A stretch of 39,140 bases of DNA, from NCBI RefSeq assembly GCF_016790145.1, contig NZ_JAEUOI010000220.1, forward strand, positions 1 through 39,140. The letters run 5' to 3'. Of this stretch, positions 1 through 32,952 are shown piece after piece (position 1 is the stretch's first letter; every line of letters starts with the position of its first letter). The notes beneath the pieces are model-generated. The model had not been told where the DNA came from. It was given only the letters and a program-made list of their open reading frames with translations, and did no database searches. The DNA comes from Propionivibrio sp. Its GTDB lineage: Bacteria; Pseudomonadota; Gammaproteobacteria; Burkholderiales; Rhodocyclaceae. The translations under genes were made by a program, and so were the position numbers.

Positions 1-860
1 GGGCTGAAGACGCGTTTGGCGATGGCGATCTGGTTCGGCGCCAGCGACCAGGCTCCCGAGCAGCCCATCAGGAAGGCATTGCGGAATTGCGCTTCGCAGG
101 CGGCTTCGTCCTTGAGGTCGCCAAACGGGCCGTAGAATGAATGCAGCCCATGCGCCACGGCCGCATCGACCATACGAGCGATGGTGTAATGCCAGAGATC
201 CTGCTGATAGAAAGCGCGCGTATCCTTGCCTTCTTCCTCGTCGACCAGTACACCGTAGCCGGGATGTCCGCCACCGACCCGCGTCGTCTTCATGCCGCGC
301 GAAGCGGCCAGATCGGCCGGGCCGAGGCTCAGGCCATGCATGCGCGGGCTGGCACCGCAGATGGCTTCGACGTTGGTGACGCCCTGCGCCGTTTCAAGCA
401 GGGCATGCAGCAGGATCGGCTTTTTGATTCCATATTTGGCTTCGAGCAGGGACACATACTGGTCAACGAAGTGAATATCCCACGGCCCCTCGACCTTGGG
501 AATCATGATCACATCGACCTTGTTGCCGACGTGCTTGATGATCTCGCTCAAGTCATCGAGTATCCAGGGGCTGTTCAAGGCATTGACGCGTACCCACATC
601 GCGGTGTCGCCGAAGTCGTTGTTGCTCAGCAACTCGATGAAGCCCGCACGCGCGGCGTCCTTGGATTCGATGGGGATGGCGTCTTCGAGGTTGCCGCACA
701 TCACATCGCATTGCTTGGCCGTCTCGGGGGCCTTGTTGCGGATCTTTTCGATATGCGGAGGGAAGAAATGGATCATCCGTTCCGGTCTCACCGGCAGTTC
801 GCGCAGGGGTTGCGGTGCGCCGATGGCGAGTGGCTTGTAGAAATGAACGGGTAGCTTCAT
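1..860 (-). CDS. mcl: L-malyl-CoA / beta-methylmalyl-CoA / citramalyl-CoA lyase, 3' end outside window
   Basis: This is a HpcH/HpaI aldolase / citrate-lyase-beta-like enzyme. Family members condense glyoxylate with acetyl-CoA or propionyl-CoA, or run in reverse, and the bicycle enzyme also splits citramalyl-CoA to pyruvate and acetyl-CoA. About 286 residues are visible; the Chloroflexus-type enzyme is near 350, so roughly 60 C-terminal residues lie beyond position 1. Visible family motifs are W-V-R-V-N (Arg91), L-L-E-T-A-Q-G (Glu156) and G-P-A-D-L-A-A-S (Asp183), the acyl-CoA/Mg-binding pattern of malyl-CoA lyases. The ATG at 860 has an AAAGGA ribosome binding site 7 nt upstream. It is the last visible gene of the smtA-smtB-mct-mcl operon. 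The CoA-transferase neighbours favour a bicycle-type trifunctional lyase over a serine-cycle malyl-CoA lyase; that substrate range is inferred. Confidence 0.88.
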
Positions 861-929
861 GGCATTTTCCTTTATCAGTGGAAGGCGGATGGATTTGACG
901 GAAGTCAGGGTGCTGCTGAGTAGTGTAGT

Positions 930-2150
930 TCAGGTCGGGCCGGCAACGATGCCGTCATCGTGCAGACGACCGACTTCGGCTTCGCTCAAGCCGAGGATGT
1001 CGAGCAGAATCTGGTCGGTATGCTCCCCGAGTACCGGCGCCAGCTTCGCCGGCAGGCGGGGAACGTCCGTGAAATCAAGCGGTGTGGCCGGCGCCAGATA
1101 CGATCCGATACCCGGTTGATCGACCATCGAGAACATCGGATTGTCAAGCGAGCAATCCGCATCCTTGGCAATGGCTTCGCGCACACCACGGTAGGGGCCC
1201 CAGGTAACCCGGTTGGCATCGAGAATACTCGCGGCTTCGGCCATTGTGCGGGCCTCGAACCATGGCTCCATGAGCGCGGCGATCTCCTGGCGGGCGCGAA
1301 ACCGATTGCCTTCGTCGTTAAGGTCAAGGCCGAGCCGGATGCCGAGTTTCTTGATTGCGTTCTGCAGGCCGGTCGCCTTGGTCAGACAATGCCACTGCAT
1401 GTCGGTCAGGCCGACGATCATCAGGCGTTTACCGTCCAGCGTTCTGAAGTCGCGCCCAAAGGAGCCATAGAGATAGTTGCCATACTTGGGCCGATCCGCA
1501 TTATTGACCATCACTTCGGCCAGCAAGCCGAGATTGCCGAGCATCGCCAGTGCCACGTCTTTCAATGACAGACGAACCAGTTGCCCTTCGCCGGTAAGCC
1601 GTCGATGTCTTTCGGCGGCGAGCAGGCCGATGGCGATCATGTGACCGCTGGTGTAATCCCACGCCGGAAAAGCGTCGTTCACCACCTCCGACGAATTGAT
1701 CGGCCCGTTCAAAAAGGGCAGGCCGACCTGTGGGTTAACGGTGTAATCGACCTCCGAACCGCCATCGCGACGACCAAGAAAGTTGATCATGATCAGATCC
1801 TGACGATGGGCTTTCAGCGTTTCATAACTGAGCCAGCCCTTGGCCGGGAAATTGGTGCTGAACAGGCCTCCATTTTCACCCGGGGCGCAGATCAGCCGGG
1901 TCAGCAACTCTTGACCTTCCGGCTTGCGAAAGTCGACGGCGATCGAGCGTTTACCCTTGTTCAGGCCAGCCCAGAACAGGCTGTGCTTGCCATCCAGGGT
2001 CAGCGGCCAGCGACTGTTGTCCAGCCCGCCGTCGAGCGGGTCGAAACGAATGACATCGGCACCGAGTTGCGCCAGAGTCATCCCGCCCAGTGGCGCAGCG
2101 ACAAAGGCGGTGCCTTCGACAACACGCAAACCCTTGAGAATTCCTTCCAT
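930..2150 (-). CDS. mct: Mesaconyl-CoA C1:C4 CoA transferase
   Basis: This is a class III CoA transferase of about 406 residues, the usual length of Mct from the 3-hydroxypropionate bicycle. That enzyme moves CoA from the C1 to the C4 carboxyl of mesaconate within one molecule. The N-terminal Rossmann-type motif (G-L-R-V-V-E-G, then G-A-D-V-I-R-F) is intact. The Asp in P-A-W-D-Y-T-S-G falls at residue 165 if the ATG at 2150 is used, in the class III catalytic position just before the conserved G-L-L-A-A helix. A GTG at 2159 adds three codons. The ATG is preferred because GGTGGA precedes it and the numbering then fits the family. It lacks the G-Y-G-Q-T-G-P motif of intermolecular transferases such as its smt neighbours, which fits an intramolecular enzyme. 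Confidence 0.87.
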   Translation of the reverse strand: MEGILKGLRVVEGTAFVAAPLGGMTLAQLGADVIRFDPLDGGLDNSRWPLTLDGKHSLFWAGLNKGKRSIAVDFRKPEGQELLTRLICAPGENGGLFSTNFPAKGWLSYETLKAHRQDLIMINFLGRRDGGSEVDYTVNPQVGLPFLNGPINSSEVVNDAFPAWDYTSGHMIAIGLLAAERHRRLTGEGQLVRLSLKDVALAMLGNLGLLAEVMVNNADRPKYGNYLYGSFGRDFRTLDGKRLMIVGLTDMQWHCLTKATGLQNAIKKLGIRLGLDLNDEGNRFRARQEIAALMEPWFEARTMAEAASILDANRVTWGPYRGVREAIAKDADCSLDNPMFSMVDQPGIGSYLAPATPLDFTDVPRLPAKLAPVLGEHTDQILLDILGLSEAEVGRLHDDGIVAGPT

Positions 2151-2190
2151 TTTGTCCACCCATCCCGTGTTGCGCTCAACTTGAGCGGTT

Positions 2191-3417
2191 TCAGATCACG
2201 CGCTTTTTGCGCAGCGCGTCAATCTCGTTCTGATTCATGCCGAGCAGACCGGAGAGTACTTCGTCCGTATGTTGCCCGAGCTTCGGTCCGAGGTGCCCGA
2301 TGCGGCCCGGTGTGACCGACAGGCGTGGAATCACCGAGGGTACGATGACCGTCTCGCCGATGTCCGGCTCGTCGATGGCCACCAGATTGCGTCGCGAGTG
2401 AAACTGCCGGTCGCCGAAAACATCGGCAATGCTGTTCAGGGGGCCGGCCGGCGCACCCGCCGCAAAGCAGCGGGCAAGCAGTTCTTCACGCGTCAGCGAA
2501 CCGCACCAGTCGCGAACGATTTCGTTGACATCGTGACGATGTTCCATGCGCACCTTCTGATCCCCATAGACGTGTGCAGCCGCCAGTTCGGGACGTCCCA
2601 TGGCCATCGCCAGTCGTTCGAACAGTTTGTCGGTAACACACGAAATGGCCACCCACTTGCCGTTCTCCTTGGTCGGGAAATGGCCATGCGGACAGGCGAA
2701 ATCGTTGTGTGTCGGTCCGTGCCGCTCGCGCACCGTTCCGTACATCCCATAGGCCGACGCCAGTTCGTCGGTGCAGCGAAACACCGATTCGTAGAGGGCG
2801 GCGTCGATATACTGGCCGCGTCCGCTGCGCTCGCGGTGGTGCAAAGCCATCAATATGCCGATGCAGCCATAGAGCCCGGTCAGGTAATCGCCGATAGTGG
2901 TCGACCCCGGAGTGACCGGTGTTCCTCTCGGCATACCCGAGAGAAAGGCAATGCCGCCGACCGCGTGCGCGACGCGGGCAAAACCGGGCCGGTCCTTGTA
3001 GGGGCCGGTCTGCCCGTAGCCGGTGACGCGCAGCATGATCAGACGCGGGTTGATTTCGTGCAAAACGTCCCAGCCAAGCCCCCATTTTTCAAGCGTGCCG
3101 GGCCGGAAGTTTTCGCACAGCACATCGGAGTTCTCGATCAGTTTCTTGAACAACTCGACGCCTTCGGGCAGGTGCAGGTCGAGTGTAACGGATTTCTTGT
3201 TGCGCGCTTCGCTCAGCCAGGCCAGCGTGTCCTTGCGTTTGGTCGGCGTGCCGAAGTAACGCATGGGATCGCCCCCTTTGGGGTTTTCGACCTTGATGAC
3301 CTCGGCGCCAAATTCGCCGAGAATGCTGGCGCTGTAGGGCGCGGCGATGACCGTGGCGGCATCGATCACACGAATGCCGGCGAGCGGTAACTTTGTCTCT
3401 TTCTGTTCAGTGGTCAT
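2191..3417 (-). CDS. smtB: Succinyl-CoA:L-malate CoA transferase, beta-like subunit
   Basis: This class III CoA transferase has 408 residues from the ATG at 3417, which has AGGA six nt upstream. A TTG at 3432 is in frame but lies upstream of that ribosome binding site and was rejected. Visible motifs are L-A-G-I-R-V-I-D-A at the N-terminus, [16 protein letters not shown], and the catalytic-type Asp in T-I-G-D-Y-L-T-G (residue 177). SmtAB moves CoA from succinyl-CoA to L-malate, giving L-malyl-CoA for Mcl to cleave. It follows smtA by 23 nt and closely resembles it, so the pair probably arose by duplication and forms a hetero-oligomer. Assigning the shorter partner as SmtB rests on length (about 406 residues in Chloroflexus) and gene order. 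Confidence 0.78.
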
Positions 3418-3440
3418 GTGGAGTCCTCGCAATGGCCTGT

Positions 3441-4784
3441 TCAGATGATCTTGCGTTGCCGCAAGCGCTGTATTTCCTGTGCCGAAATACCAAGCAGTTC
3501 GCGCAGGACTTCATAGGTCGCATTGCCGAGCGGCGGCCCGAGATTGGAGATCCTGCCCGGCGTCTCCGACAGCGTCGGTACGACACCTGGAATCACCACC
3601 TCGCCAAGCCCTTCCTCCCTGAGGTGGGCCAGGTTACCGCGCGCCAGAAAATGTTCGTCCACAAAGATGTCAGCGATGCTGTTGAGCTTGCCGATCGGCA
3701 CTTCGCCATCAATGCACAGCGTCATGATCTCGTCGCGGGTCAGCGTTCCGACCCATTCGATGACGATCCGGTTGACCTCGTCGCGCGCGGCCAGGCGCTT
3801 GCGCTGATTGCCATAGCACTCGGCCGAAGCAAGTTCGGGTTTGCCCATGGCCGCAGCGATACGTTCGAACATCTTGTCCGTAGTGCAGGCGATGGCGACC
3901 CATTTGTCATCGACGGTTCGGAAATGTCCGTGTGGAACGGCAACGTAGCTGCCAGCACCTTCACGCTCGCGAACCTTGCCGAACAGGCCGTAAGCCGCAG
4001 CGATCTCGTCCATCTGGCGGAAAACGGCTTCGTAAATGCCGATGTCGATGATCTGTCCTTCTCCGCTTGCGTCCCGGTGACGCAATGCGATCAGGATGCC
4101 AATGGCGCCGTAGAGGCTGGACAGGTAGTCACCGAGCGGCGAGGTACCGGGCACCACCGGGGTTTCACCGGGGAAACCGGCGAGGTAGGAGAGGCCGGCG
4201 AAGCCATGGGCGATGTGCGCAAAACCCGAACGATTGCGATAGGGCCCGGTCTGCCCGTAGCCGGAGACGCGGAGCATCACCAGGCCAGGGTTGGCCTTGC
4301 TCAACTCGTCCCAACCGAGCCCCCATTCCTCCATCGTGCCGGGACGGAAGTTTTCGATCAGCACGTCGGACTTGGCAACCAGTTTCAGAAACAGTTCGAC
4401 GCCTTCCTTCTGGCGCAGGTCGAGCGTCACCGATTTCTTGTTGCGACCTTCGCTGAGCCAGGCCAGCGTTGCGTCGTGGCGCTTCGATGCCGTTCCGAAG
4501 CGCCGCATCGGATCACCGTTGATTGGATGCTCGACCTTGAGAATCTCGGCACCGAACTCGCCAAGCATCGATGCCGCATAGGGACCAGCCAGAAAGGTGC
4601 CGACGTCGATGACGCGTACGCCGCTCATTGGCAGGTTTTCAGTATCGGGCATACGCTCCTGATCCGGGTCATCCTGCAGACACTGAGCGTTTGTGGATGA
4701 ATCGCTGGCTGGCGTTGCCTCCGCCGTGGCCGTAGATCCTGACCTCAGCGGGTCGGAATCCGACGTACCTGCTCTTTTTTTCAT
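3441..4784 (-). CDS. smtA: Succinyl-CoA:L-malate CoA transferase, alpha-like subunit, with N-terminal extension
   Basis: This class III CoA transferase has 447 residues and is the first gene of the operon. A strong AGGAGG sits 7 nt before the ATG at 4784; the in-frame start 21 nt upstream was rejected because it lies on the other side of that site. The first 50 or so residues are a polar tail rich in Ser, Thr, Ala and Asp. The enzyme domain starts at [10 protein letters not shown]. Motifs are [15 protein letters not shown] and the catalytic-type Asp219 in L-G-D-Y-L-S. The partner is the adjacent smtB product. The role, making L-malyl-CoA from succinyl-CoA and malate, is inferred from the cluster. 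Alone, the fold could be another CoA transferase such as formyl- or citramalate-type. Confidence 0.78.
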
Positions 4785-5003
4785 AGCCAATCCTCCTAAT
4801 AGCATACCCGTAAAATATATTTATTTATCATATTACGACAGATCCTTGCCGAAGCAAGTCGGGTAATATACAACAGAAAAGCTTAACGGCGCAAAAGCGG
4901 GGTGCTGCGCGATTCACACGATAATCTTGTGGCAACTTGAGTTTACCTGGCTGCTGTGCTGTACTTGCCGTAACGTCTCCAGTTAACCTGAAAGGATCAA
5001 GGC
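4785..5003. promoter_or_regulatory. Divergent promoter region of the smtA operon and meh, with nested inverted repeat
   Basis: This 219-nt spacer must drive both directions of the assimilation cluster. It is AT-rich next to smtA. At 4830-4869 an outer repeat (ATATTAC ... GTAATAT, with GAC/GTC continuing inward) encloses a perfect inner hairpin CTTGC-CGAA-GCAAG (4845-4858). For meh a weak sigma-70-like pair is visible, TTGAGT (4937-4942) and TGTACT (4960-4965), 17 nt apart. The nested repeat lies about 46 nt upstream of the smtA start, so it could be an operator for a dimeric regulator or a leader hairpin. Neither role is proven. Confidence 0.4.
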
Positions 5004-5858
5004 ATGACCGACTCGACAACAGATTACGCCCAGTGGATAGGCCGCCGGGAGATCACCGAAGATGACCTGGGACTGGCGCCGGCGCTGGCGGCGGCGGCCA
5101 TGCTCGACGATACGGTGACACGCTTCGAGAAAGGCAGTTCATTGCCGGCGTTGTGGCATTGGTTCTACTTTCTTCCGAAGGCGCCGCAAGCGCTGCTCGA
5201 CGTCGACGGCCATCCGCAGCGCGGCGGCTTCATGCCACCGATTCCTTTCCCAAGACGGATGTTTGCCGGTGCGCGCATGCGCTTTCATCGCCCACTGGTC
5301 ATCGGTCAACCGGCGCGCCGCGAAGCCGTGATTCGCGACATCCGCCAGAAGTCGGGTCGTTCAGGCTCGCTGGCTTTTGTCTCCGTAGTCTGCAGTTACT
5401 ACCAGGATGACCTGCTGTGTATCGAGGAGGAACAGGACATCGTCTACCGTGAACCGGGTCCGGCGGTTGCCTGCCCGCGCGTGATCGAATGGCCGCCGTT
5501 ACCCGACGGTGCCTGGTCACGCATCGTGACGCCAGACCCGAAACTGCTGTTCCGCTTTTCGGCGCTGACCTTCAATGCGCATCGGATTCATTACGACCGC
5601 CCCTATGCAACGCATGACGAAGGCTATCCGGGCCTGGTGGTGCATGGGCCGTTGACGGCCGTCCTGCTTATGGAAATGGTACGACACCATGTTGCTCGAC
5701 CGGTGCTCGGATACAGCTTCCGAGGACTGGCACCGCTCTTCGACCTGGCTCCGTTTCGCCTCGTCGGCATAGCAGCAGATGATGGCCGGGTAAATCTGGA
5801 AGCGCAGGGACCGGATGGCACAGCAGCGATGAACGCCAGCGCCGAACTTGCGGTTTGA
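5004..5858 (+). CDS. meh: Mesaconyl-C4-CoA hydratase
   Basis: This 284-residue double-hotdog protein belongs to the MaoC/HTD2-type dehydratase group. Residues about 1-160 form the degenerate N-terminal hotdog. The C-terminal half carries the hydratase-2-like stretch F-N-A-H-R-I-H-Y-D-R-P-Y-A, with G-L-V-V-H-G-P following. Meh hydrates mesaconyl-C4-CoA to (S)-citramalyl-CoA, which Mcl then cleaves to acetyl-CoA and pyruvate. The ATG at 5004 has AAAGGA 7 nt upstream. It is divergent from smtA, whereas the lyase and transferases it works with are on the opposite strand. Without the neighbours it would only be called a MaoC-like dehydratase, so the substrate comes from context; length and domain layout agree with the known enzyme. 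Confidence 0.82.
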   Translation: MTDSTTDYAQWIGRREITEDDLGLAPALAAAAMLDDTVTRFEKGSSLPALWHWFYFLPKAPQALLDVDGHPQRGGFMPPIPFPRRMFAGARMRFHRPLVIGQPARREAVIRDIRQKSGRSGSLAFVSVVCSYYQDDLLCIEEEQDIVYREPGPAVACPRVIEWPPLPDGAWSRIVTPDPKLLFRFSALTFNAHRIHYDRPYATHDEGYPGLVVHGPLTAVLLMEMVRHHVARPVLGYSFRGLAPLFDLAPFRLVGIAADDGRVNLEAQGPDGTAAMNASAELAV

Positions 5859-6149
5859 TACCAATGTCGTGCCAACAAGCGTCGGGATGACACGCAATGG
5901 GCTTGATGATGTTGAGCAATGACGCTGAAATTGCACCGTCAGCCATTTTTGATCCTGAATTTCACAGAGTAACTTAAGCTGCAATGTGTTATGTTATATG
6001 TAATCAGAGTTAAACAAGCAGCTAAGCTAGCTGATCGTCATCGCATCGAATGCTCGCACTAAAAGGCGTAACAAGCTGTTCGGACTATCAAGCAAATCCG
6101 GACTGGCGGATACCAATCCTTCCAGCGAAAAAATTCGGACCTCTGCCCC
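5859..6149. other. Intergenic region between meh and hypF
   Basis: No credible gene is seen in these 291 nt. A small perfect inverted repeat, CAGCTA-AGC-TAGCTG, lies at 6019-6033 in an AT-richer stretch. The 3' part lacks a clear ribosome binding site before the GTG of hypF. A long minus-strand open frame that starts inside hypF and ends here is its antisense shadow. Confidence 0.5.
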
Positions 6150-8474
6150 GTGCAAACTTCTGACAATCCAAATATCGTCTGCCAACGCATCCGGCTCAGT
6201 GGTGTCGTTCAGGGTGTCGGCTTCCGGCCATTTGTCTGGCGGCTGGCCAAGGAGCTCGATCTTACCGGCTGGGTCAGAAAAGACTCGCATGGCCTGGAAA
6301 TCGAAGTCTGCGGTGCGCTTGAACAAGTGCAAAATCTGCTTGAGCGGCTGAAAGAAGATGCTCCGGCAATGGCACGCATCGATTCTGTGAAGGCGCACGA
6401 GACCCAAGTGGAGTGTGTTGCCGAGGATTTCTATATCCTGAACAGCCGTGGTGGCCGGGCACCGGCAATGGTCGGGAACGACACGGCCGTCTGCCGCGAT
6501 TGCCTGACGGAGATGTTCAGTCCGGCGAACCGGCGCTGGCGTTACGCGTTCGCCAGTTGCAAGAGTTGCGGCCCGCGTTACACGATTTGCCGCGCCTTGC
6601 CTTACACTCGCGAGCGAACGAGCCTCAAACCCTTTCCGCTCTGCCTGAAGTGTCAAATCGAGTCCCGGCAGACTGCAGATCGGCACCATCATAACGAAGC
6701 CAATTGTTGTCCGAAGTGCGGGCCGCAGCTTGCGCTGCTCGACGCCGAAGGCAGGCCTCTGCAAGGCGATCCGATTGCCCAGGCCTTGAGTCTTCTGGAG
6801 CAGGGGAAGATCGTCGCCATCAAGGGCCCGGGGGGCTTTCATCTGGCCTGCGACGCACGCAATGCCGTGGCTGTAGCCGTCTTGCGCGAGCGCAAACAGC
6901 GTGATCAGAGGCCGTTTGTCGTAATGCTGGCCAATGCCTCTTCCGCCAGCACCTTCGTTCATCTGGGCATTGGCGAACCGGGTCTGCTCGCTATCCCGGA
7001 GCGACCGATCATTTTGCTCAAAAAGCGCGCCACTTGCGATGCGGCGCTACCGGGAGTGACATCGGGGCTGGGTTGGCTGGGCGTCATGATGCCGTGCACG
7101 CCCTTGCAGTACCTGCTCTTCCATGAAGCGGCGGGTCGCCCGCAGGGTACGGGCTGGCTGGATCAGCCGCAGAAACTCGCACTGGTGATGACCGGCGCCG
7201 ATCCCGGCGGCGAGCCATTGGTGATTGGCAACAACGAAGCCCTGCTGCGCCTGTCCGGCATCGCTGATGCCTTTCTCCTGCATGATCGCGAGATACAGGC
7301 TCGTTGCGACGACAGCATCGCGCGCTCAGGCCCCGGTGGGCTGCAACTTGTTCGCCGTGCGCGCGGCTATACGCCACGCGCGATCAAGTTGCCACGCTCC
7401 GGTCCGCCGGTACTGACGGTAGGCGGCTGGTTCAAGAACACGGTTTGCGTGACACGCGGCGATGAGGCCTTTGTTTCGCAACATATCGGTGATCTGGATA
7501 ATGCGGCAGCGTGTGATTTTTTTGAAACCACTGTCGCCCGTCTGCTCAAATTTCTAGAGATCAAACCGGCGCTGGTCGCGCACGATCTGGATCGCAACTT
7601 CCACTCGACACGATATGCCCTGGAGTTTGCCCGTCATAGAGGGGTGCCGGCACTCGCCGTGCAGCATCAGCACGCCCACATCGCTTCTGTTCTGGCTGAA
7701 CATCGGGTTGACGCCCCGGTTATCGGGCTGGCGCTTGATGGAATTGGCCTGGGGACGGATGGCGGCTGCTGGGGCGGCGAACTGATGCGCGTTGATGGAG
7801 CGCTAATGCAGCGTCTCGGCCATCTTGCGCCGATTCAGCTGACCGGCGACCAGGCGCTAAGAGAACCATGGCGACTGGCCGCAGCGGTGTTGCAGCAACT
7901 CGGGCGCGGCAAGGAAATCGGTCGGCGTTTTGCCAAACAGCGTTCTGCTGCCGCGGTCGAAAAACTACTCGTCAGTGGTGGCAACTGTCCTGCGACTTCG
8001 AGTCTTGGCTGTTACATCAATGCTGCAGCAGGTTTGCTCGGCGTCAAGTCCATGCTGACTTTTGATGGGCAGGCGGCTGAATTGCTCGAAGGAATGTCCG
8101 AACACTATGGCGATGTTTTGCCACTCAATGACGCCTGGACGATTGAAGATGGTGTTCTGAATCTGCTGCCCCTTTTCGCGGTTCTGGCCGATGAGAAAAA
8201 TGCCGAGCGCGGTGCCGCCGTTTTTCATGCCACACTGATTGCCGCGCTGGCCGACTGGGTATGCGCCGTAGCACCGGTAAACACAACGGTAGTTGGCAGC
8301 GGCGGTTGTTTCCTAAATCTGGTGCTTGCCCGTGGCCTGCGTTCCCGACTTGGTGGTCATGGCCTGCACCTGATCGAGGCGCGCCACCTGCCGCCAAATG
8401 ATGGCGGACTGGCGCTGGGTCAGGCGTGGGTTGCGCAGCAGTACCTGCTCGGGGGTAAAGCACCGCCTGGTTAA
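6150..8474 (+). CDS. hypF: Carbamoyltransferase HypF, [NiFe]-hydrogenase maturation
   Basis: HypF makes the carbamoyl group that becomes the cyanide ligands of the [NiFe]-hydrogenase centre, passing it to HypE. The 774 residues carry the full domain order. An acylphosphatase-like domain spans about 10-100 (G-V-V-Q-G-V-G-F-R-P-F, Arg26). Two zinc fingers follow, with CxxC pairs at 115-118, 137-140, 165-168 and 187-190. A YrdC-like domain has K-G-P-G-G-F-H-L-A-C-D, and a Kae1-like domain has H-Q-H-A-H and G-L-A-L-D-G-I-G. The residue matching the second acylphosphatase catalytic position, normally Asn, is Lys44 (V-R-K-D). No other hyp or hydrogenase gene is in the window. The start is a GTG with only a weak upstream site, so it is uncertain; the N-terminal domain itself is complete. 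Confidence 0.95.
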   Translation: MQTSDNPNIVCQRIRLSGVVQGVGFRPFVWRLAKELDLTGWVRKDSHGLEIEVCGALEQVQNLLERLKEDAPAMARIDSVKAHETQVECVAEDFYILNSRGGRAPAMVGNDTAVCRDCLTEMFSPANRRWRYAFASCKSCGPRYTICRALPYTRERTSLKPFPLCLKCQIESRQTADRHHHNEANCCPKCGPQLALLDAEGRPLQGDPIAQALSLLEQGKIVAIKGPGGFHLACDARNAVAVAVLRERKQRDQRPFVVMLANASSASTFVHLGIGEPGLLAIPERPIILLKKRATCDAALPGVTSGLGWLGVMMPCTPLQYLLFHEAAGRPQGTGWLDQPQKLALVMTGADPGGEPLVIGNNEALLRLSGIADAFLLHDREIQARCDDSIARSGPGGLQLVRRARGYTPRAIKLPRSGPPVLTVGGWFKNTVCVTRGDEAFVSQHIGDLDNAAACDFFETTVARLLKFLEIKPALVAHDLDRNFHSTRYALEFARHRGVPALAVQHQHAHIASVLAEHRVDAPVIGLALDGIGLGTDGGCWGGELMRVDGALMQRLGHLAPIQLTGDQALREPWRLAAAVLQQLGRGKEIGRRFAKQRSAAAVEKLLVSGGNCPATSSLGCYINAAAGLLGVKSMLTFDGQAAELLEGMSEHYGDVLPLNDAWTIEDGVLNLLPLFAVLADEKNAERGAAVFHATLIAALADWVCAVAPVNTTVVGSGGCFLNLVLARGLRSRLGGHGLHLIEARHLPPNDGGLALGQAWVAQQYLLGGKAPPG

Positions 8475-26277: not shown

Positions 26278-26781
26278 TTAGTGCGCACTTCCCCAGCGCT
26301 GCTTCAGCCAGTAATCCAGCGACCAGCGCCCCGACCCGTGAAAGAGAATGACCAGTAGTAAGGCTCCCCATAGCACATGATCCTGCCGGCCGAGATCGGA
26401 AAGATCAGCGTAGGAAATAACGGCAATGACATTCATCACCGACAGACCGGCGGCGCCAAAGCGCCCGGCCAGGCCGAGTGCGAGGAGGACGGGCAAACCG
26501 AGCTCGCCGGCGGTTCCCATGAGGGCTGCCAGTTCCGGCGGCAGGACGGGTACCTGATACTCGTACTGGAATAGCGCCACCGTCGAGCTCCAGTCCTGGA
26601 TCTTGGTCAGGCCAGACTTGAAGAATACGCTGGCAACATAAAGCCGGATGGACAGATCGAAGAGCGGCGTCAGCCAGCGCTCGATCAGGGCAATGCTGCG
26701 CTGTGCGAAGGAGAGCAGAGCGCCGGTGGAACCGGCCAGCGGTGTGGAGGAAGTCGATCCGGTGAGGGAAGCATCGTTCAT
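26278..26781 (-). CDS. DoxX-family membrane protein of the bufferin operon
   Basis: The 167-residue protein has four membrane segments and DoxX motifs: D-L-S-I-R-L-Y-V-A-S-V-F-F-K-S-G, Y-E-Y-Q-V-P and L-L-A-L-G-L-A-G-R. AAGGAG precedes the ATG at 26781. DoxX proteins are quinone-linked or redox-associated membrane subunits and commonly accompany bufABC genes; their exact role there is not settled. It follows bufC by 94 nt, with a strong hairpin in between. Its sequence is noticeably similar to the first DoxX domain of the fusion protein at 34407-36533. Confidence 0.88.
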   Translation of the reverse strand: MNDASLTGSTSSTPLAGSTGALLSFAQRSIALIERWLTPLFDLSIRLYVASVFFKSGLTKIQDWSSTVALFQYEYQVPVLPPELAALMGTAGELGLPVLLALGLAGRFGAAGLSVMNVIAVISYADLSDLGRQDHVLWGALLLVILFHGSGRWSLDYWLKQRWGSAH

Positions 26782-26844
26782 TTTTTTCTCCTTGAGTCAG
26801 TCGATGAGGCGGGGTTTCGTTTCGCGCTTGGGGTGGACACAACA

Positions 26845-26875
26845 GTCGGGTCATGGCCTGTCGGCCTGACCCGAC
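26845..26875. repeat. REP-like hairpin between bufC and doxX
   Basis: GTCGGGTCATGGCC and GGCCTGACCCGAC form a 13-bp stem with one bulged base and a TGTC loop. It abuts the bufC stop codon. There is no T-run in either direction, so it looks more like a REP-type element or an mRNA-stabilising hairpin than a terminator; it would set the ratio of bufABC to doxX transcript. No second copy was noticed in the window. Confidence 0.65.
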
Positions 26876-27697
26876 CTACAATCGATGATCTGTTTCGTTC
26901 ATTGAAAATCCGGTCAGCGTGCGCTGTACGATGAAGGCTTGCAGCGTCGCGCCGGGGTTGAAGGCGGGGTCTTCGCTCAGCGCGGCGGTTATCGCTTCCG
27001 CCAGCGTCTGCCCGGATTGCAGAGCACGCAGGAAAGCCGCTTCACTGGCCGTCAAGGCCAGTGCAGAGACCCTGCCTTCACTGCGCACGACCAGCGCCCG
27101 GCAAGGCGCTGAGTGTGACAGGGCATCGATAGCGGCGAGCGCGCTGTCACGTTCGTCCTCGGTCAACTGGTGCGCCTGCCAGATATCGACCAGCGGCCAG
27201 GGCGATTCGATAAACGCGGCGCCGGCCCAGATGTGCAGGCGCAGATTCGGCTGCAAGGCGGAGGGGATCTCGGCCAGCGCGGCAAGATCGAAGACGGCGG
27301 CATCGACAGCACCATAGGCGACGAGCAGCGCCCACTCCAGCCGTGCCATGTCGGGCAGATAAGGTCGTTCACTGCTCAGCGATGAGGCTTCGAGCCAGGC
27401 CGCCAGCTCACCGCCATAGTCGTTCAGGTCGCCGCTACGGCTCGGGTAGCCGGCGATGTACTGATCGGCAAGCTGGCGAAAACGCTGCGCGCCGAGAAGC
27501 TGCGCGAGTACCGGGTAGCTCGATGCCAGGGCGCTGCGCCAGTTGCCGATCACGTTGCGCCGGTAAGCCGCCAGCCGTCGTTCGGCCAGCGCTTCGGGTT
27601 CAGTGAACAGCGCCCACAGTGCCGGGGTGTGGCCAGGCGCGGCGTCATTGCGCAGCGCGCCGCCAAATACGGCTTGCACTTCAGGCAGCGAGGGCAT
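26876..27697 (-). CDS. bufC: BufC, DUF2063 partner of the bufferin-modifying enzyme
   Basis: BufC-type proteins carry an N-terminal DUF2063 domain that presents the precursor peptide to the MNIO enzyme BufB. From the ATG at 27697 (AGGAA upstream) it has 273 residues. The N-terminal half has the DUF2063 pattern: R-L-A-A-Y-R-R-N-V-I-G-N-W-R-S-A-L-A-S-S-Y-P-V-L, then Y-P-S-R-S-G-D-L-N-D-Y-G and L-P-D-M-A-R-L-E-W-A. The start overlaps bufB by 17 nt, so a longer upstream frame would be antisense-like bufB shadow. No catalytic residues are expected. Confidence 0.88.
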   Translation of the reverse strand: MPSLPEVQAVFGGALRNDAAPGHTPALWALFTEPEALAERRLAAYRRNVIGNWRSALASSYPVLAQLLGAQRFRQLADQYIAGYPSRSGDLNDYGGELAAWLEASSLSSERPYLPDMARLEWALLVAYGAVDAAVFDLAALAEIPSALQPNLRLHIWAGAAFIESPWPLVDIWQAHQLTEDERDSALAAIDALSHSAPCRALVVRSEGRVSALALTASEAAFLRALQSGQTLAEAITAALSEDPAFNPGATLQAFIVQRTLTGFSMNETDHRL

Positions 27698-28574
27698 GAC
27701 CAGATTCCTGAGGTGATGCCGAATCAACGTGCATGCGGGCGCGCAGCCGCCGCTCGGCTTGCGCCGCTTCGCCTTGCAGCACGGCCAGAGAGGGGATGTC
27801 GACGTCCCATTCGATGAGCGTCGGCTTGGCGCCGAGCTGGTCGAGGGCGTACTCGTACAAGTCCCACACCGGCGAATGCACCGGCTGACCATGGGTGTCG
27901 ATGAGGAAATCCTCGCACGCCTCGAAGCCGGCCAGATGCAGTTCGCCGACGAGGTCGGCCGGGATGGCGTCGATATAGCTCTGGGCAGAAAAACCGTGAT
28001 TGCACGCCGACACGTAGATGTTGTTGATGTCGAGCAGAATGCCGCAACCGCTGCGTCTGGCAACAGCGACGAGAAAATCCCATTCGCTCATCATCGAGTC
28101 GGCGAACTGAAGATAGCTCGACACGTTCTCAACCAGAATCGACCGCTGCAAGCGTTCCTGCACGCAGTCGATGCGGGCAACGGCCTGCTCCAGCGCTTCT
28201 TTAGTGTAGGGCAGCGGCAGCAGGTCGTTGAAGTGCCGTGCACCGGCGGACGACCAGCACAGGTGCTCGGATACCGACGCCGGCTCGATGCGCTCTACGA
28301 GCGCCGCCAGTTTCTCCAGATGCGCTTCAAACAGGGTATCGAGCGCACCGAGCGAGAGGCCGACGCCGTGCAGGCTGAGCGGATAGGATTGCCGGATACG
28401 GTGCAGAAACTCGATCGGGGCGCCACCGGCGCTGAAGAAGTTTTCGCTATGCACCTCCCACCAGGCCACCGCCGGCCGTTCGGCAAGAACCTGCGCATGA
28501 TGCGGGGCGCGCAGGCCGATACCGGCGGCAAGGGGCAGTCTGATGGGCGTGGCAGGTGAGGAAAAAGAGCGCAT
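27681..28574 (-). CDS. bufB: BufB, multinuclear iron oxidase (DUF692/MNIO) modifying bufferin cysteines
   Basis: MNIO enzymes use two or three irons and oxygen to convert peptide cysteines; BufB makes thiooxazoles in bufferins. The 297 residues form a TIM-barrel with metal-ligand motifs of the family: W-E-V-H-S-E-N, S-L-H-G-V-G-L-S-L, S-E-H-L-C-W, I-L-V-E-N-V-S-S-Y, L-D-I-N-N-I-Y-V-S, H-L-A-G-F, D-T-H-G-Q-P-V-H and I-E-W-D. All appear intact. AGGAG precedes the ATG at 28574, 16 nt after bufA ends. It probably modifies both the adjacent BufA and the second precursor at 29091-29351; that is inference. Confidence 0.93.
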   Translation of the reverse strand: MRSFSSPATPIRLPLAAGIGLRAPHHAQVLAERPAVAWWEVHSENFFSAGGAPIEFLHRIRQSYPLSLHGVGLSLGALDTLFEAHLEKLAALVERIEPASVSEHLCWSSAGARHFNDLLPLPYTKEALEQAVARIDCVQERLQRSILVENVSSYLQFADSMMSEWDFLVAVARRSGCGILLDINNIYVSACNHGFSAQSYIDAIPADLVGELHLAGFEACEDFLIDTHGQPVHSPVWDLYEYALDQLGAKPTLIEWDVDIPSLAVLQGEAAQAERRLRARMHVDSASPQESGHALAA

Positions 28575-28590
28575 GCCCGCTACTCCTGGT

Positions 28591-28887
28591 TCAGCCTTTT
28601 TTCTTCATCTCCTTCTCCAGCTCGGCCGCCGCTTTGAGCTTGCCGCCCATTTTTTCGCAACTGCCTTTATCGACGTATTTCCAGTCGTTGGGGTCCTTGT
28701 CGACGGTCGAGGTGCCGGCGCAGGCGTGCTTCGAATACTTGCCGCCGCAGTCGTTCTTGCCGGCCATGGCGACGCCATAGCATTTTTCCTTGTCGGCTGC
28801 GGCGAAGGCAGCACCGGAAGATGCACTGAGGCCAAGGGCGAGCAGACCGGCGATGGCGGCTTGAGCGAGGGTATTTTCAGATTTCAT
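28591..28887 (-). CDS. bufA: BufA1-type bufferin precursor (DUF2282), copper-binding RiPP
   Basis: Bufferins are secreted, cysteine-modified peptides that bind copper in the periplasm and protect against it. The 98-residue precursor starts at the ATG at 28887 (GGAG upstream; an ATG 12 nt earlier is less well placed). It has a Sec signal peptide ending G-A-A-F-A (about residue 29). The mature part has the DUF2282 signature E-K-C-Y-G-V-A ... A-G-K-N-D-C, with further Cys in H-A-C-A-G and G-S-C-E-K, four in all. The tail is Lys/Glu-rich. It is first in the operon bufA-bufB-bufC-doxX; its promoter must lie in 28888-29047, but none was identified. Confidence 0.92.
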
Positions 28888-29047
28888 GTAAGTCTCCATT
28901 GGATGAGTTGGTTATCACAAACTGTCGGCCGGAATCGGGATTAATCTCCGGGAAAGCGCCGAAGTGCCTAACGCAGCAAATCCATCTGTGCGTCAAAACG
29001 TCGGCAGGCAATGCGCAGAATCAGATGCAAACGCATTGAATTCTCTT

Positions 29048-30287: not shown

Positions 30288-30929
30288 CTAGACCAGGTCT
30301 TCATCCAGCACGATGCCGGCGCGCAGCGCCAGGCTGACAAGTTCGGCGACCGAACTGGCCTGCATTTTCTGCATGACGCGCGCCCGATGCGCCTCCACCG
30401 TCCTCGGGCTGATGTCGAGATCGCGTGCGATCAGCTTGTTCGATCGGCCGGCGACGATCTGCTTCAGCACGACCAGTTCGCGTGACGTGATCTGCCCTAC
30501 GCGCGCCGCCATGTCGCCGCTTACCGCCTGCGACCGGTCGCTACCCGGCGGCAGATTGAGCGCCGAATTCACCAGGTCGAGCAGATCCTGGTCGTTGAAT
30601 GGCTTCTCGACAAAGTCGTTGGCGCCCGCCTTCAGTGCGCGCACCGCCAGCTTGACGTCACCATGCGCGCTGATGACGATAACCGGCAGGCGGCAACCGC
30701 GTTTGCGCAGGGCCTCGATCAGATCGATGCCGTTCATCAGCGGCATGCGCAAGTCGGTGATCAGGCAACCACTTTCCAGATCGTCGGCGCCGGCCAGTGC
30801 GGCGTGCGCGTTCTCGAACTCGACCACCTTCATGCCGACAGACTGAAACAGCAAGCGCAGCGCATCGCGCACGCTCGGCTCGTCGTCGACGACGTAGACG
30901 ATGGGCATTCCCGGGGGGGTCTCAAGCAT
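30288..30929 (-). CDS. FixJ-family two-component response regulator
   Basis: The 213-residue regulator has a receiver domain (V-D-D-E-P at the start, phospho-acceptor Asp59 in I-T-D-L-R-M-P, S-A-H-G-D, V-E-K-P-F) and a LuxR/FixJ-type helix-turn-helix (I-T-S-R-E-L ... I-S-P-R-T-V-E-A-H-R). AAGGAG lies 7 nt before the ATG at 30929, which overlaps the kinase stop by 8 nt; this fixes the start and shows coupling. Its target genes are unknown; the EF-hand and bufferin genes directly downstream are candidates. Confidence 0.92.
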   Translation of the reverse strand: MLETPPGMPIVYVVDDEPSVRDALRLLFQSVGMKVVEFENAHAALAGADDLESGCLITDLRMPLMNGIDLIEALRKRGCRLPVIVISAHGDVKLAVRALKAGANDFVEKPFNDQDLLDLVNSALNLPPGSDRSQAVSGDMAARVGQITSRELVVLKQIVAGRSNKLIARDLDISPRTVEAHRARVMQKMQASSVAELVSLALRAGIVLDEDLV

Positions 30930-32952
30930 CCCGGAACTCCTTGAGGGTGAAGGTGAATGTCGCGCCACGGTCCGGCTCGGCGGCGCCATGCAGTTGGCCG
31001 TCGTGATCCTCGATGATCGATCGACACAGCGCCAGCCCGATACCGACGCCGTCAGGCTTACTGGTGTAGAACGGCTCGAATATCTTTTCCATCTCAGCTG
31101 CGGCGAATCCCGGCCCCGAATCGATGACCGCGAAGGCCACGCCATCGGGCGGGGCGTTAATACTTTTCAGGGTAATGAGCCTTATCGCCGACCCGGCCTC
31201 GGCGATGGCCTCGGCAGCGTTGCGCACAAGATTCAGCAAAACCTGCTGAATTTGCACCGGGTCGACAAAAACCCTGCAGCCGCTACCGCACAGGTCGGTA
31301 CGCAACTCGACGCCATGCTGACGGACCTCCGGTTCGGCGAGACGAGCGACTTCGCCGACCAGAAGATCCGCCACCTGCGGCACGCGCTCGGACTTCCTGT
31401 CCTGAACGAAGCCGCGAATCCGCCGGACGATTTCCGATCCGCGACGCGCTTCGCGCTCGGCGCCATCAATGGACTCCCGGGCGGGACCGATGGCGCCGGC
31501 GCCAGACGACAGAAAGCGCCTTGCCGCTTGCGCATAGCTGGTGATCGCGGTCAGCGGCTGGGCTATCTCATGGGCGAACGCGATTGCCATTTCGTCCATG
31601 GACTGCACACGATTGGTGTGCGCGATTTGCTGCAGGCGCAAGCGGGAGAGTTCCGCAGCCCGGCGCGACTCGGTGATGTCGGCGACCACGGCCATGATTC
31701 TCTTCGGCTGTCCCGCAGAACCGGCCAAACGGCGCGGTGCCACCGATGCGAGCATGGTTCCTTCGCCGGCGCGCTCCAGCGCGACCTCGATCTGGACGTC
31801 CTGTCCGCCTTCGGTATCGTTTAACGCCTGCTCAAGACGAAGACGATCCGTGGTGGCAACCAACTGAGTGAAGGGACGACCAATCAGATCCTGACGTTGC
31901 CAGCCAGATAGCGCGCAGAAGCGATCCGAAACAAAGGCAAAGCGACGCAAACCGTCGAGTGTGATGACTCCTTCCCGCATCTGCTCGATCAGCATCCGGT
32001 GTGCATGTTCGCTTTCCTCGACGCGTTGCGCCGACGCAGAGCGTTCGCGGGCTGCGGCCGCGAGCAACAGGGCCGTGACGGTGGCGATCATCAGAAACAG
32101 GCCCAATGAATACAGCGCCTCGATCTGGTTGCTGATGATGAACGGACCGCTGGCGCGCCAGGCCGCCCAGGTGGCGAAAATGGCTGTCAGCAGCATCACG
32201 TCGGAGGTCTCGCGGGGACCGAAGCGCAATGCAGCCCACAGAACGACGACGAACACGGCATAGAGAAGCGCCGATGCCGGACCGCTTGGAGTCGCCGTGA
32301 AGGCGGCGGCGTTGAGCAGTACGGCCGCCAGCAGCAACAGAAAAAACTCGGCGGACGGCTTGAGCAGGGGTCTTTCGGCCGTCCATGAAAGAATGACGGG
32401 TGCCACCAGCAGCACGCCAAGGCCATGTCCCAGAGAGCCGACGAAAACGGTTTGCGCATTCGGAACCGGCATTGGCCCGGCGTCGCCCATGACCGCGATC
32501 AGCAGCAGCCGGGGCATCATACAAAACATGGCGGCGGGCAGGACGCCTGCCGTGACGAAGGCAGTCACATCCTTGATACGCCGCAGTCGCGGGTCGAATC
32601 CGGCAATGCGCGTAAGCAGATACCAGGCGATCAGCGCTTCGCCGACGGCGCCAATAGCCAGCAGCAAGGCGTGGACGACCGGCAGGCCGGTATTCAGGTT
32701 GACGAGAAAATCGCTGAAAAAAATCGCCAGTGAAACCGAAGGGCCGAGCAGCAACATGGCCGCCACCGAAATGCCCGCGGCGGGCCAGATGCCGGCGACT
32801 CCATTGCCGATCGGAAAGACGGCAAAGGCAAGCATGCCGGCGCCGTAATACGCAGCCGCCGTAACAAGGTGTACCAGCAAGCGGGAGGGCAGAGTCAGCG
32901 AAATCGATGGGTCGTAGTAGCCAGCGCCGGGCTGAACAGGCTGTTCAGACAT
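30922..32952 (-). CDS. MASE1-PAS sensor histidine kinase
   Basis: The 676-residue kinase starts at the ATG at 32952 (GGAG about 9 nt upstream). It has an N-terminal MASE1 membrane sensor of about eight segments (G-N-G-V-A-G-I-W-P-A-A-G-I-S). A PAS domain (about 325-440, M-R-E-G-V-I-T-L-D-G) follows, then a HisKA domain with A-H-E-I-A-Q-P-L-T, and a HATPase domain with N box L-L-N-L-V-R-N-A-A-E-A-I, D-S-G-P-G-F and G-V-G-I-G-L-A-L. This is the FixL/TodS-type partner of the following FixJ-like regulator. The signal sensed by MASE1 is unknown. Confidence 0.92.
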   Translation of the reverse strand: MSEQPVQPGAGYYDPSISLTLPSRLLVHLVTAAAYYGAGMLAFAVFPIGNGVAGIWPAAGISVAAMLLLGPSVSLAIFFSDFLVNLNTGLPVVHALLLAIGAVGEALIAWYLLTRIAGFDPRLRRIKDVTAFVTAGVLPAAMFCMMPRLLLIAVMGDAGPMPVPNAQTVFVGSLGHGLGVLLVAPVILSWTAERPLLKPSAEFFLLLLAAVLLNAAAFTATPSGPASALLYAVFVVVLWAALRFGPRETSDVMLLTAIFATWAAWRASGPFIISNQIEALYSLGLFLMIATVTALLLAAAARERSASAQRVEESEHAHRMLIEQMREGVITLDGLRRFAFVSDRFCALSGWQRQDLIGRPFTQLVATTDRLRLEQALNDTEGGQDVQIEVALERAGEGTMLASVAPRRLAGSAGQPKRIMAVVADITESRRAAELSRLRLQQIAHTNRVQSMDEMAIAFAHEIAQPLTAITSYAQAARRFLSSGAGAIGPARESIDGAEREARRGSEIVRRIRGFVQDRKSERVPQVADLLVGEVARLAEPEVRQHGVELRTDLCGSGCRVFVDPVQIQQVLLNLVRNAAEAIAEAGSAIRLITLKSINAPPDGVAFAVIDSGPGFAAAEMEKIFEPFYTSKPDGVGIGLALCRSIIEDHDGQLHGAAEPDRGATFTFTLKEFRDA

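Follow-up and report, generated by a model that had tools for sequence, protein, structure and literature searches.

The DNA analysed here, referred to as the window, is a stretch of 39,140 nucleotides from Propionivibrio sp.; it is the full length of C180, one of the 239 contigs of a 4.05 Mb genome (G000). Its left end carries five genes, namely mcl, mct, two smt genes and meh (Table 1), which are part of a complete six-gene block, mch-mcl-mct-smt1-smt2 plus a divergent meh. A preliminary description of the sequence had already grouped the five genes at positions 1-5858, and the grouping was borne out by a curated family match for Mct, by structure matches for Mcl, and by gene place and similarity for Smt and Meh. 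It had also predicted that mch would lie just left of position 1, and this gene was found on a second contig, C171, which shares an exact overlap of 135 bases with the window.

The search of the genome for MaoC-type hydratases recovered mch as a double-MaoC protein on C171; its match among solved structures, 4e3e, is presumably a Chloroflexus protein. The C-terminal part of Mcl is encoded next to mch, on the minus strand where C171 ends. When the two contigs were joined through the last 135 bases of C171, Mcl became an uninterrupted 347-aa frame, and blastn comparisons of the joined stretch with two congeners (G007 and G022) were continuous across the junction, at 84.5 and 83.9%, respectively, with a collinear block. 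The join is an assembly inference. Three congeners without the block (G010, G026, and G005) have both flanks on one contig but show no empty site: some 122 to 353 kb separate the short-chain dehydrogenase/reductase (SDR) gene of the left flank from rlpA of the right flank. A rearrangement in G000 or an erroneous join in the assembly is therefore possible. The gene order hypF-rlpA-rodA-mrdA on the right is common to the window, these three congeners, and G007.

Table 1. Genes and features of the block and its boundaries (window coordinates unless a contig is given)
Feature	Position	Strand	Description
mch	L041 (contig C171) 8130-9188	-	352 aa; matches 4e3e (568 bits) and a beta-methylmalyl-CoA dehydratase (467 bits)
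C171 overlap	1-135		identical to the last 135 bases of C171; links the window to mch
mcl	3-860	-	malyl-CoA/beta-methylmalyl-CoA/citramalyl-CoA lyase; gene truncated at the contig end, with 286 of 347 aa encoded in the window and the remainder on C171
mct	930-2159	-	TIGR04253; matches to 7xkg and 8apq; D168, L46, R50, Y139
smt1 (smt subunit)	2191-3432	-	family III CoA transferase, putative succinyl-CoA:malate CoA transferase; PF02515, 386 bits
smt2 (smt subunit, partner of smt1)	3441-4805	-	family III CoA transferase; PF02515, 366 bits
meh	5004-5858	+	putative mesaconyl-C4-CoA hydratase; divergent from the other block genes
hypF	6150-8474	+	right boundary of the block, outside it

Mct scored 781 bits against NCBIfam TIGR04253 (cut-off 725), which makes it a member of the curated family, and matched the solved structures 7xkg (725 bits) and 8apq (717 bits), the Mct proteins of Roseiflexus and Chloroflexus, respectively (PMC9813914). 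Residues D168, L46, R50, and Y139 align with Asp165, Leu43, Arg47, and Tyr136 of Chloroflexus Mct, which are singled out in the structure paper (PMC9813914); the narrowing Leu would mark an enzyme of the intramolecular type and not a mesaconate-activating transferase. Identity to the Mct proteins of the two congeners was 93 and 95%. Mcl matched 6kin (557 bits) and 4l7z (540 bits), which we take to be the Roseiflexus and Chloroflexus Mcl, respectively. Its E156 and D183 (aligned) and D317 (by ungapped extension) correspond to Glu157, Asp184, and Asp318 of the Chloroflexus enzyme, which cleaves citramalyl-CoA and also handles malyl-CoA and beta-methylmalyl-CoA (PMC3832036).

Mcl, both Smt proteins, and Meh passed no curated NCBIfam equivalog. 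Smt and Meh are named from their conserved place in the block and their similarity to Chloroflexota counterparts: identity to the gene in the same place was 72-79% for smt1 (nine Chloroflexota loci) and 70-79% for smt2 (seven loci), and 65-71% for Meh and the likewise divergent gene of five loci. Of the second cycle of the 3-hydroxypropionate bi-cycle, mch, mcl, mct, and meh, the last by position and similarity only, are all present. The solved proteins matched by Meh are 8huc (a MaoC_dehydrat_N domain protein, 226 bits) and 8khg (an itaconyl-CoA hydratase, 225.5 bits). The latter match, together with the general family III character of the Smt proteins, would suit a block for the catabolism of C5 dicarboxylates (mesaconate, itaconate, or methylsuccinate) or of propionate, in which the CoA transferases serve for activation. 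We consider such a role very improbable, because Mct has the narrowing Leu of the intramolecular type, and because Mcl and Mch match the bi-cycle enzymes far better than Mcl matches RipC, the lyase belonging to the itaconate set (92 bits, cut-off 375).

With an alignment of six Mct proteins as the query, 3 of the 28 genomes in the window's genus matched at E<=1e-100. The mct DNA of Candidatus Accumulibacter contiguus matched 27 of the 28 genomes in the genus of G045 over nearly the whole query, and the mct of G124 is 100% identical to it; the genus of G045 is therefore Accumulibacter, and that of the window is another genus of the same family. The link to Accumulibacter made in the preliminary description was right. 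Among 119 genomes, that of the window included, the Mct cut-off was passed by four (G000, G007, G022, and G045). Below it were two other Burkholderiales: G098 (716 bits), which carries mch, mcl, mct, a 243-aa smt match, and meh, and G099 (561.5 bits), which carries mct, smt1, smt2, and part of meh on a 4.1-kb contig. In a collection of named genomes we considered the best 80 Mct loci of at least 577 relatives; these include Accumulibacter, Chloroflexales, Gemmatimonadota, other Burkholderiales, Gammaproteobacteria, and others, and 34 of them have mcl and mch at >=60% identity beside mct.

The same four genomes carry genes from the front half of the ethylmalonyl-CoA (EMC) pathway. Crotonyl-CoA carboxylase/reductase (Ccr) was found in 4 of the 119 genomes at E<=1e-100 and methylsuccinyl-CoA dehydrogenase (Msd) in the same four at E<=1e-110, and these are the four with Mct over the curated cut-off. 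In the window genome, ecm, meaB, ccr, and a carbonic anhydrase gene are consecutive on contig C115, and the whole Ccr protein scored 553 bits against TIGR01751 (cut-off 378.55). The msd gene lies on contig C159, and its product is 86% identical to that of G022; the G022 relative scored 633 bits against 8ciw, a solved (2S)-methylsuccinyl-CoA dehydrogenase, the next match being 6es9 (319.5). The end of C159 (L160 4662-5136) overlaps the start of C115 (L142 1-478) at 95% DNA identity over 479 columns, which is not exact and hints at a strain mixture in the bin or at two copies of the ecm start. The G+C content is alike in C180, C171, C115, and C159 (57.6-59.4%). The carbonic anhydrase gene directly after ccr (L142 5134-5907; 288 bits, cut-off 251) has a counterpart near ccr in G022 (L144), and a role in supplying the carboxylase with CO2 would be plausible.

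In G022 and G045, the block itself is neighboured by a mutase, a 553- to 556-aa acyl-CoA dehydrogenase, a DUF6986 protein, and then a MeaB-type GTPase, and in G045 also by a PF19315 hydratase. EMC genes were present in the examined flanks of these two genomes and of 8 of the 11 named Accumulibacter loci (L047-L053 and L059; not L055, L056, or L058), and the EMC operon of 6 of the 11 encodes a second hydratase, of the PF19315 type. The DUF6986 (PF22484) protein stands beside msd in the EMC operon of L043 (5145-6587), L044 (3862), L047-L052, and L059. All 11 loci contain mct, mcl, and mch, and nine contain meh. No smt gene lies between meh and mct in six of them (L047, L049, L051, L052, L055, and L058), and in L059 smt is reduced to a 68-aa fragment.

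Because Msd yields mesaconyl-C1-CoA in the EMC pathway (PMC12290011) and Mct acts on that compound (PMC9813914), the block can be read as an outlet of the EMC pathway; that pathway also has a hydratase acting on the same ester. Crotonyl-CoA, from acetyl-CoA or stored poly-3-hydroxybutyrate (PHB), and CO2 would be converted to mesaconyl-C1-CoA by Ccr, the adjacent mutase, and Msd; Mct would shift the CoA to C4, Meh would hydrate mesaconyl-C4-CoA to citramalyl-CoA, and Mcl would split this into pyruvate and acetyl-CoA. In an alternative branch, Mch and Mcl may take the intermediate to glyoxylate and propionyl-CoA; the block could also recover these two as pyruvate and acetyl-CoA, and Smt may exchange malate and malyl-CoA. 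Our preferred reading, to which we give about an even chance, is that in the window genome and in Accumulibacter the block works, possibly among other uses, as such an outlet from crotonyl-CoA and CO2 to pyruvate. Enzyme activities in the organism, the flux and the way it runs, and a tie to storage polymers are inferred here from the gene content.

The preliminary description had placed the block in glyoxylate assimilation, and the conversion of glyoxylate plus propionyl-CoA to pyruvate plus acetyl-CoA that it described is sound as a possible use; as a label for the block, glyoxylate assimilation is too narrow, since Ccr, the mutase, and Msd would make mesaconyl-C1-CoA without glyoxylate. Taken as the only function, with the EMC genes a separate matter, it would have Smt convert malate to malyl-CoA and Mcl split this into acetyl-CoA and glyoxylate, which, with propionyl-CoA from propionate or polyhydroxyvalerate (PHV), would yield pyruvate and acetyl-CoA through Mcl, Mch, Mct, Meh, and again Mcl. 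All six genes needed for this are present, both smt genes being full-length frames, and isocitrate lyase could supply glyoxylate. It would leave unexplained, however, the presence of the block in every genome among the 119 that has Ccr and Msd, the EMC genes next to it in 8 of the 11 named Accumulibacter loci, and the absence or fragmentary state of smt beside it in 7 of these 11. We regard an exclusive role in glyoxylate assimilation as unlikely. The use of Mcl and Smt as a stand-in for a missing malate synthase or isocitrate lyase was also considered and was ruled out, as both enzymes are present.

Another explanation is a classical EMC pathway, in which Mch and Mcl run mesaconyl-C1-CoA to glyoxylate and propionyl-CoA (the latter for PHV, and a redox sink), Smt removes CoA from malyl-CoA in place of a thioesterase, and Mct and Meh are minor passengers. 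It is the published reading of the EMC gene sets of Accumulibacter and Propionivibrio (PMC12604563) and of Contendobacter (PMC8956781). The state of Mct is unlike that of a passenger, as the protein is intact, has all four of the checked residues, is highly similar to those of the two congeners, and is encoded in 27 of the 28 Accumulibacter genomes; the second hydratase of the PF19315 type in the EMC operon of 6 of the 11 named loci also speaks against it. The classical pathway with passengers appears rather improbable to us, more so than a function in glyoxylate assimilation alone.

Several observations weigh against an EMC outlet. The coupling is one-way, since no Ccr or Msd over the thresholds was found in G098 and G099, and no EMC genes at >=50% identity were found in the examined flanks of the Chloroflexota and Gemmatimonadota loci, which are small on short contigs; G098 and the Chloroflexota loci also favour a function in glyoxylate assimilation. 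The block does not need the EMC pathway, yet every genome with Ccr and Msd here has the block. The co-occurrence does not amount to four independent events, because G000, G007, and G022 form one clade and at most two lineages of the family are involved. In G000 and G007, moreover, the block and the EMC operon are on separate contigs. The best solved matches of the mutase beside ccr are methylmalonyl-CoA mutases (388 bits), structure matches cannot separate the two kinds, and the G022 relative scores too low for the methylmalonyl-CoA mutase equivalog (532, cut-off 876); the protein is a putative ethylmalonyl-CoA mutase, assigned by its place in the operon only. The usual acetate route is available as well, isocitrate lyase and malate synthase being present in all four genomes (isocitrate lyase was found in 6 of 6 genomes examined at the default threshold). 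Finally, published work assigns the EMC pathway of these organisms to propionyl-CoA and glyoxylate (PMC12604563).

That work is a 2025 metatranscriptome study reporting EMC transcription in Accumulibacter and Propionivibrio with these two end products, and describing how the pathway relates to the glyoxylate cycle as unclear (PMC12604563); its main text contains none of the words mesaconyl, citramalyl, and hydroxypropionate. The balance of carbon and redox between acetate, polyhydroxyalkanoate, and glycogen in polyphosphate- and glycogen-storing bacteria is unsettled, and if Mct and Meh lead mesaconyl-CoA to pyruvate, the predicted products, the CO2 balance, and the PHV yield would change.

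The distinctive steps of the proposed route are those of the reductive citramalyl/ethylmalonyl-CoA pathway designed in 2021 (PMC10521678), all of which are covered here, one genome carrying the genes for Ccr, a mutase, Msd, Mct, Meh, and Mcl. The published pathway is a paper design, whereas the genes here are natural; the comparison concerns these steps, and the thiolase, acetoacetyl-CoA reductase, crotonase, and epimerase lie outside it. The designed module is feasible on paper: acetyl-CoA + HCO3- + 2 NADPH + ubiquinone to pyruvate is listed with a negative free energy, -39 +/- 9, in a table of the publication; no ATP is needed, but 1.25 ATP is counted for electron transfer from ubiquinone to NADPH (PMC10521678). 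A related link has been proposed as a tool for synthetic biology (PMC12290011). Within the open-licence literature, a scope outside which older papers fall, we found no statement of a link between the EMC pathway and Mct in nature, and met the route only as a design. Judging from their gene content, the four genomes with both gene sets may be able to run the designed module from acetyl-CoA and CO2 to pyruvate. That Accumulibacter and the clade in the neighbouring genus naturally run the artificial route, from crotonyl-CoA carboxylation through Mct to pyruvate and acetyl-CoA, is a tentative proposal to which we assign somewhat less than an even chance. If it is true, what was put forward as an artificial module is already found in nature as genes inherited together, and in these cells the EMC pathway has the second half of the 3-hydroxypropionate bi-cycle as its tail; they would possess an oxygen-tolerant equivalent of pyruvate synthase without a direct ATP cost, linking PHB to glycogen and fixing CO2.

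Compared with the EMC pathway typified by Methylobacterium and Rhodobacter, the window genome likewise has Ccr, a mutase, MeaB, and Msd, and adds Mct and Meh, which would give pyruvate and acetyl-CoA instead of, or besides, glyoxylate and propionyl-CoA. As for the second cycle of the bi-cycle of Chloroflexales, Roseiflexus sp. (L054) and Chloroploca (L063) carry these six genes with identical order and orientation, the window Mct being 77% identical to that of L054; the first cycle (malonyl-CoA reductase and propionyl-CoA synthase) is outside this comparison. The block of the window differs in that it resides in a genome of the Accumulibacter family with EMC genes, and its proteins share a clade with those of Accumulibacter. 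The nearest relative outside the genus is the block of Ca. Accumulibacter, also accompanied by EMC genes, with a joint clade supported by SH-aLRT (Shimodaira-Hasegawa-like approximate likelihood ratio test) values of 99 to 100. The window, however, belongs to another genus, has its block in another genomic place than G045, and keeps both smt genes, whereas the intact pair beside mct is missing in 7 of the 11 named Accumulibacter loci. Genes of this pathway are already in print for Accumulibacter (PMC6593406, PMC9813914). As such, the block adds a member to a known set, and its tie to the EMC pathway is the part deserving a second look.

In the Mct tree (86 rows, a quick tree with SH-aLRT support only and a midpoint root), the window grouped with G022 and G007 (100) inside a 16-row Rhodocyclaceae-type clade (99) that also contains Accumulibacter and one betaproteobacterium. 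The Chloroflexota rows stood beside this clade, not around it, with one gammaproteobacterium among them, and other Burkholderiales grouped with Gemmatimonadota (99). The trees of mch and smt1 agreed on the clade of the window and Accumulibacter (99 and 99, respectively), and a 25-row concatenation supported it at 100. In the concatenation (midpoint root, three non-Chloroflexota outgroup rows), the clade was, as drawn, next to Roseiflexus (86) among the Chloroflexota rows, and Accumulibacter as one group was neither shown nor rejected (support 74). The preliminary description had said that trees placing Mct, Smt, and Meh among generic formyl-CoA transferases and MaoC dehydratases, with no mch in the neighbourhood, would speak against its view; neither a placement among generic formyl-CoA transferases nor an absence of mch was observed. 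It had also proposed the transfer of a metabolic module. The mixture of phyla in the trees implies transfer between phyla, and this part is supported. As to donor and direction, Chloroflexota may possibly be the source, which the placement in the concatenation would fit, and doubt about Chloroflexi as the source of these genes has been expressed in print (PMC6593406).

Within the genus, a tree of nine flanking proteins from 15 of the 28 genomes (argS is missing in G022 and G002, and mreB in G003) joined G000, G007, and G022 in one clade (97/97) with the same branching as the block. The simplest history is therefore one gain in this clade followed by later moves of the block. A scattered distribution of the three block-bearing congeners in the genus, taken from two proteins, was ruled out by this tree. 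When the window genome is compared with G007 or G022, DNA similarity ends at both block edges; about 400 bases beyond meh are common to G007 and G022 and in the latter belong to an rmlD-type gene. At the left edge, a MazE-type antitoxin gene and a PIN-domain gene lie between the SDR gene and mch (L041 7331-7926 on C171), a possible mark of past mobility. In region 4600-6300, we found 0 promoter-like sites and 5 terminator-like sites (1.5 expected).

At four-fold sites, nine block and EMC genes had a mean identity of 58.9% between G000 and G045, compared with 48.8% for nine flanking, mostly housekeeping, genes between G000 and G007 (Mann-Whitney p 0.003) and 58.1% for flanking genes between G000 and G010 (p 0.46). 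The genes are not independent, and the housekeeping genes of Accumulibacter are outside this comparison. The same nine block and EMC genes reached 59.1% between G000 and G007, so that slower silent change in these genes is an alternative to transfer between Accumulibacter and the window's genus.

Several of the best 80 named loci showed other arrangements around mct. Five gammaproteobacterial loci (L113, L115, L117, L124, and L126; Marinobacter and four further, three of them titled Porticoccaceae) have an Msd (55-59%) within a few kb of Mct, and no mch or mcl was found in them; this pattern from outside the family lends support to an EMC-Mct link. The Marinobacter neighbourhood contains a MaoC protein (42% identical to Meh) and a CitE-like lyase, and L115 has genes for a hydroxymethylglutaryl-CoA synthase-like protein, a thiolase, a MaoC protein, and a CitE-like protein. 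These five loci perhaps represent another route through methylsuccinyl-CoA.

Fourteen loci (L094-L096, L099-L106, L108, L110, and L111), of which 12 bear the titles Competibacteraceae, Competibacter, or Contendobacter, show a meh-like (41-45%) and a CitE-like (29-33%) gene before mct, with Mct identities of 59-63%, and 10 of the 14 have an smt1 that is 77-81% identical. This arrangement would point to a mosaic history; genes of the pathway have been noted in Competibacter and others before (PMC6593406). In L074 (Defluviicoccus) and L073, mct is followed by meh (61%) without the other four block genes.

In the window as a whole, no tandem repeats or tRNA genes were found. Farther from the block, all on the minus strand, genes for DoxX, DUF2063, MbnB/TglH/ChrH (DUF692), and DUF2282 proteins lie close together (26278-28899) and have the look of a cluster for a ribosomally synthesized and post-translationally modified peptide; the cluster presumably resembles those of the copper-related bufferins. 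They are followed by a MASE1-PAS histidine kinase gene (30922-32952) and by a 708-aa frame (34407-36533) in which a DoxX domain precedes a type II NADH dehydrogenase (Pyr_redox_2, NDH2_C) in an apparent fusion. A glycoside hydrolase gene of the MGH1/GH63 kind (36537-39140) runs off the contig end.

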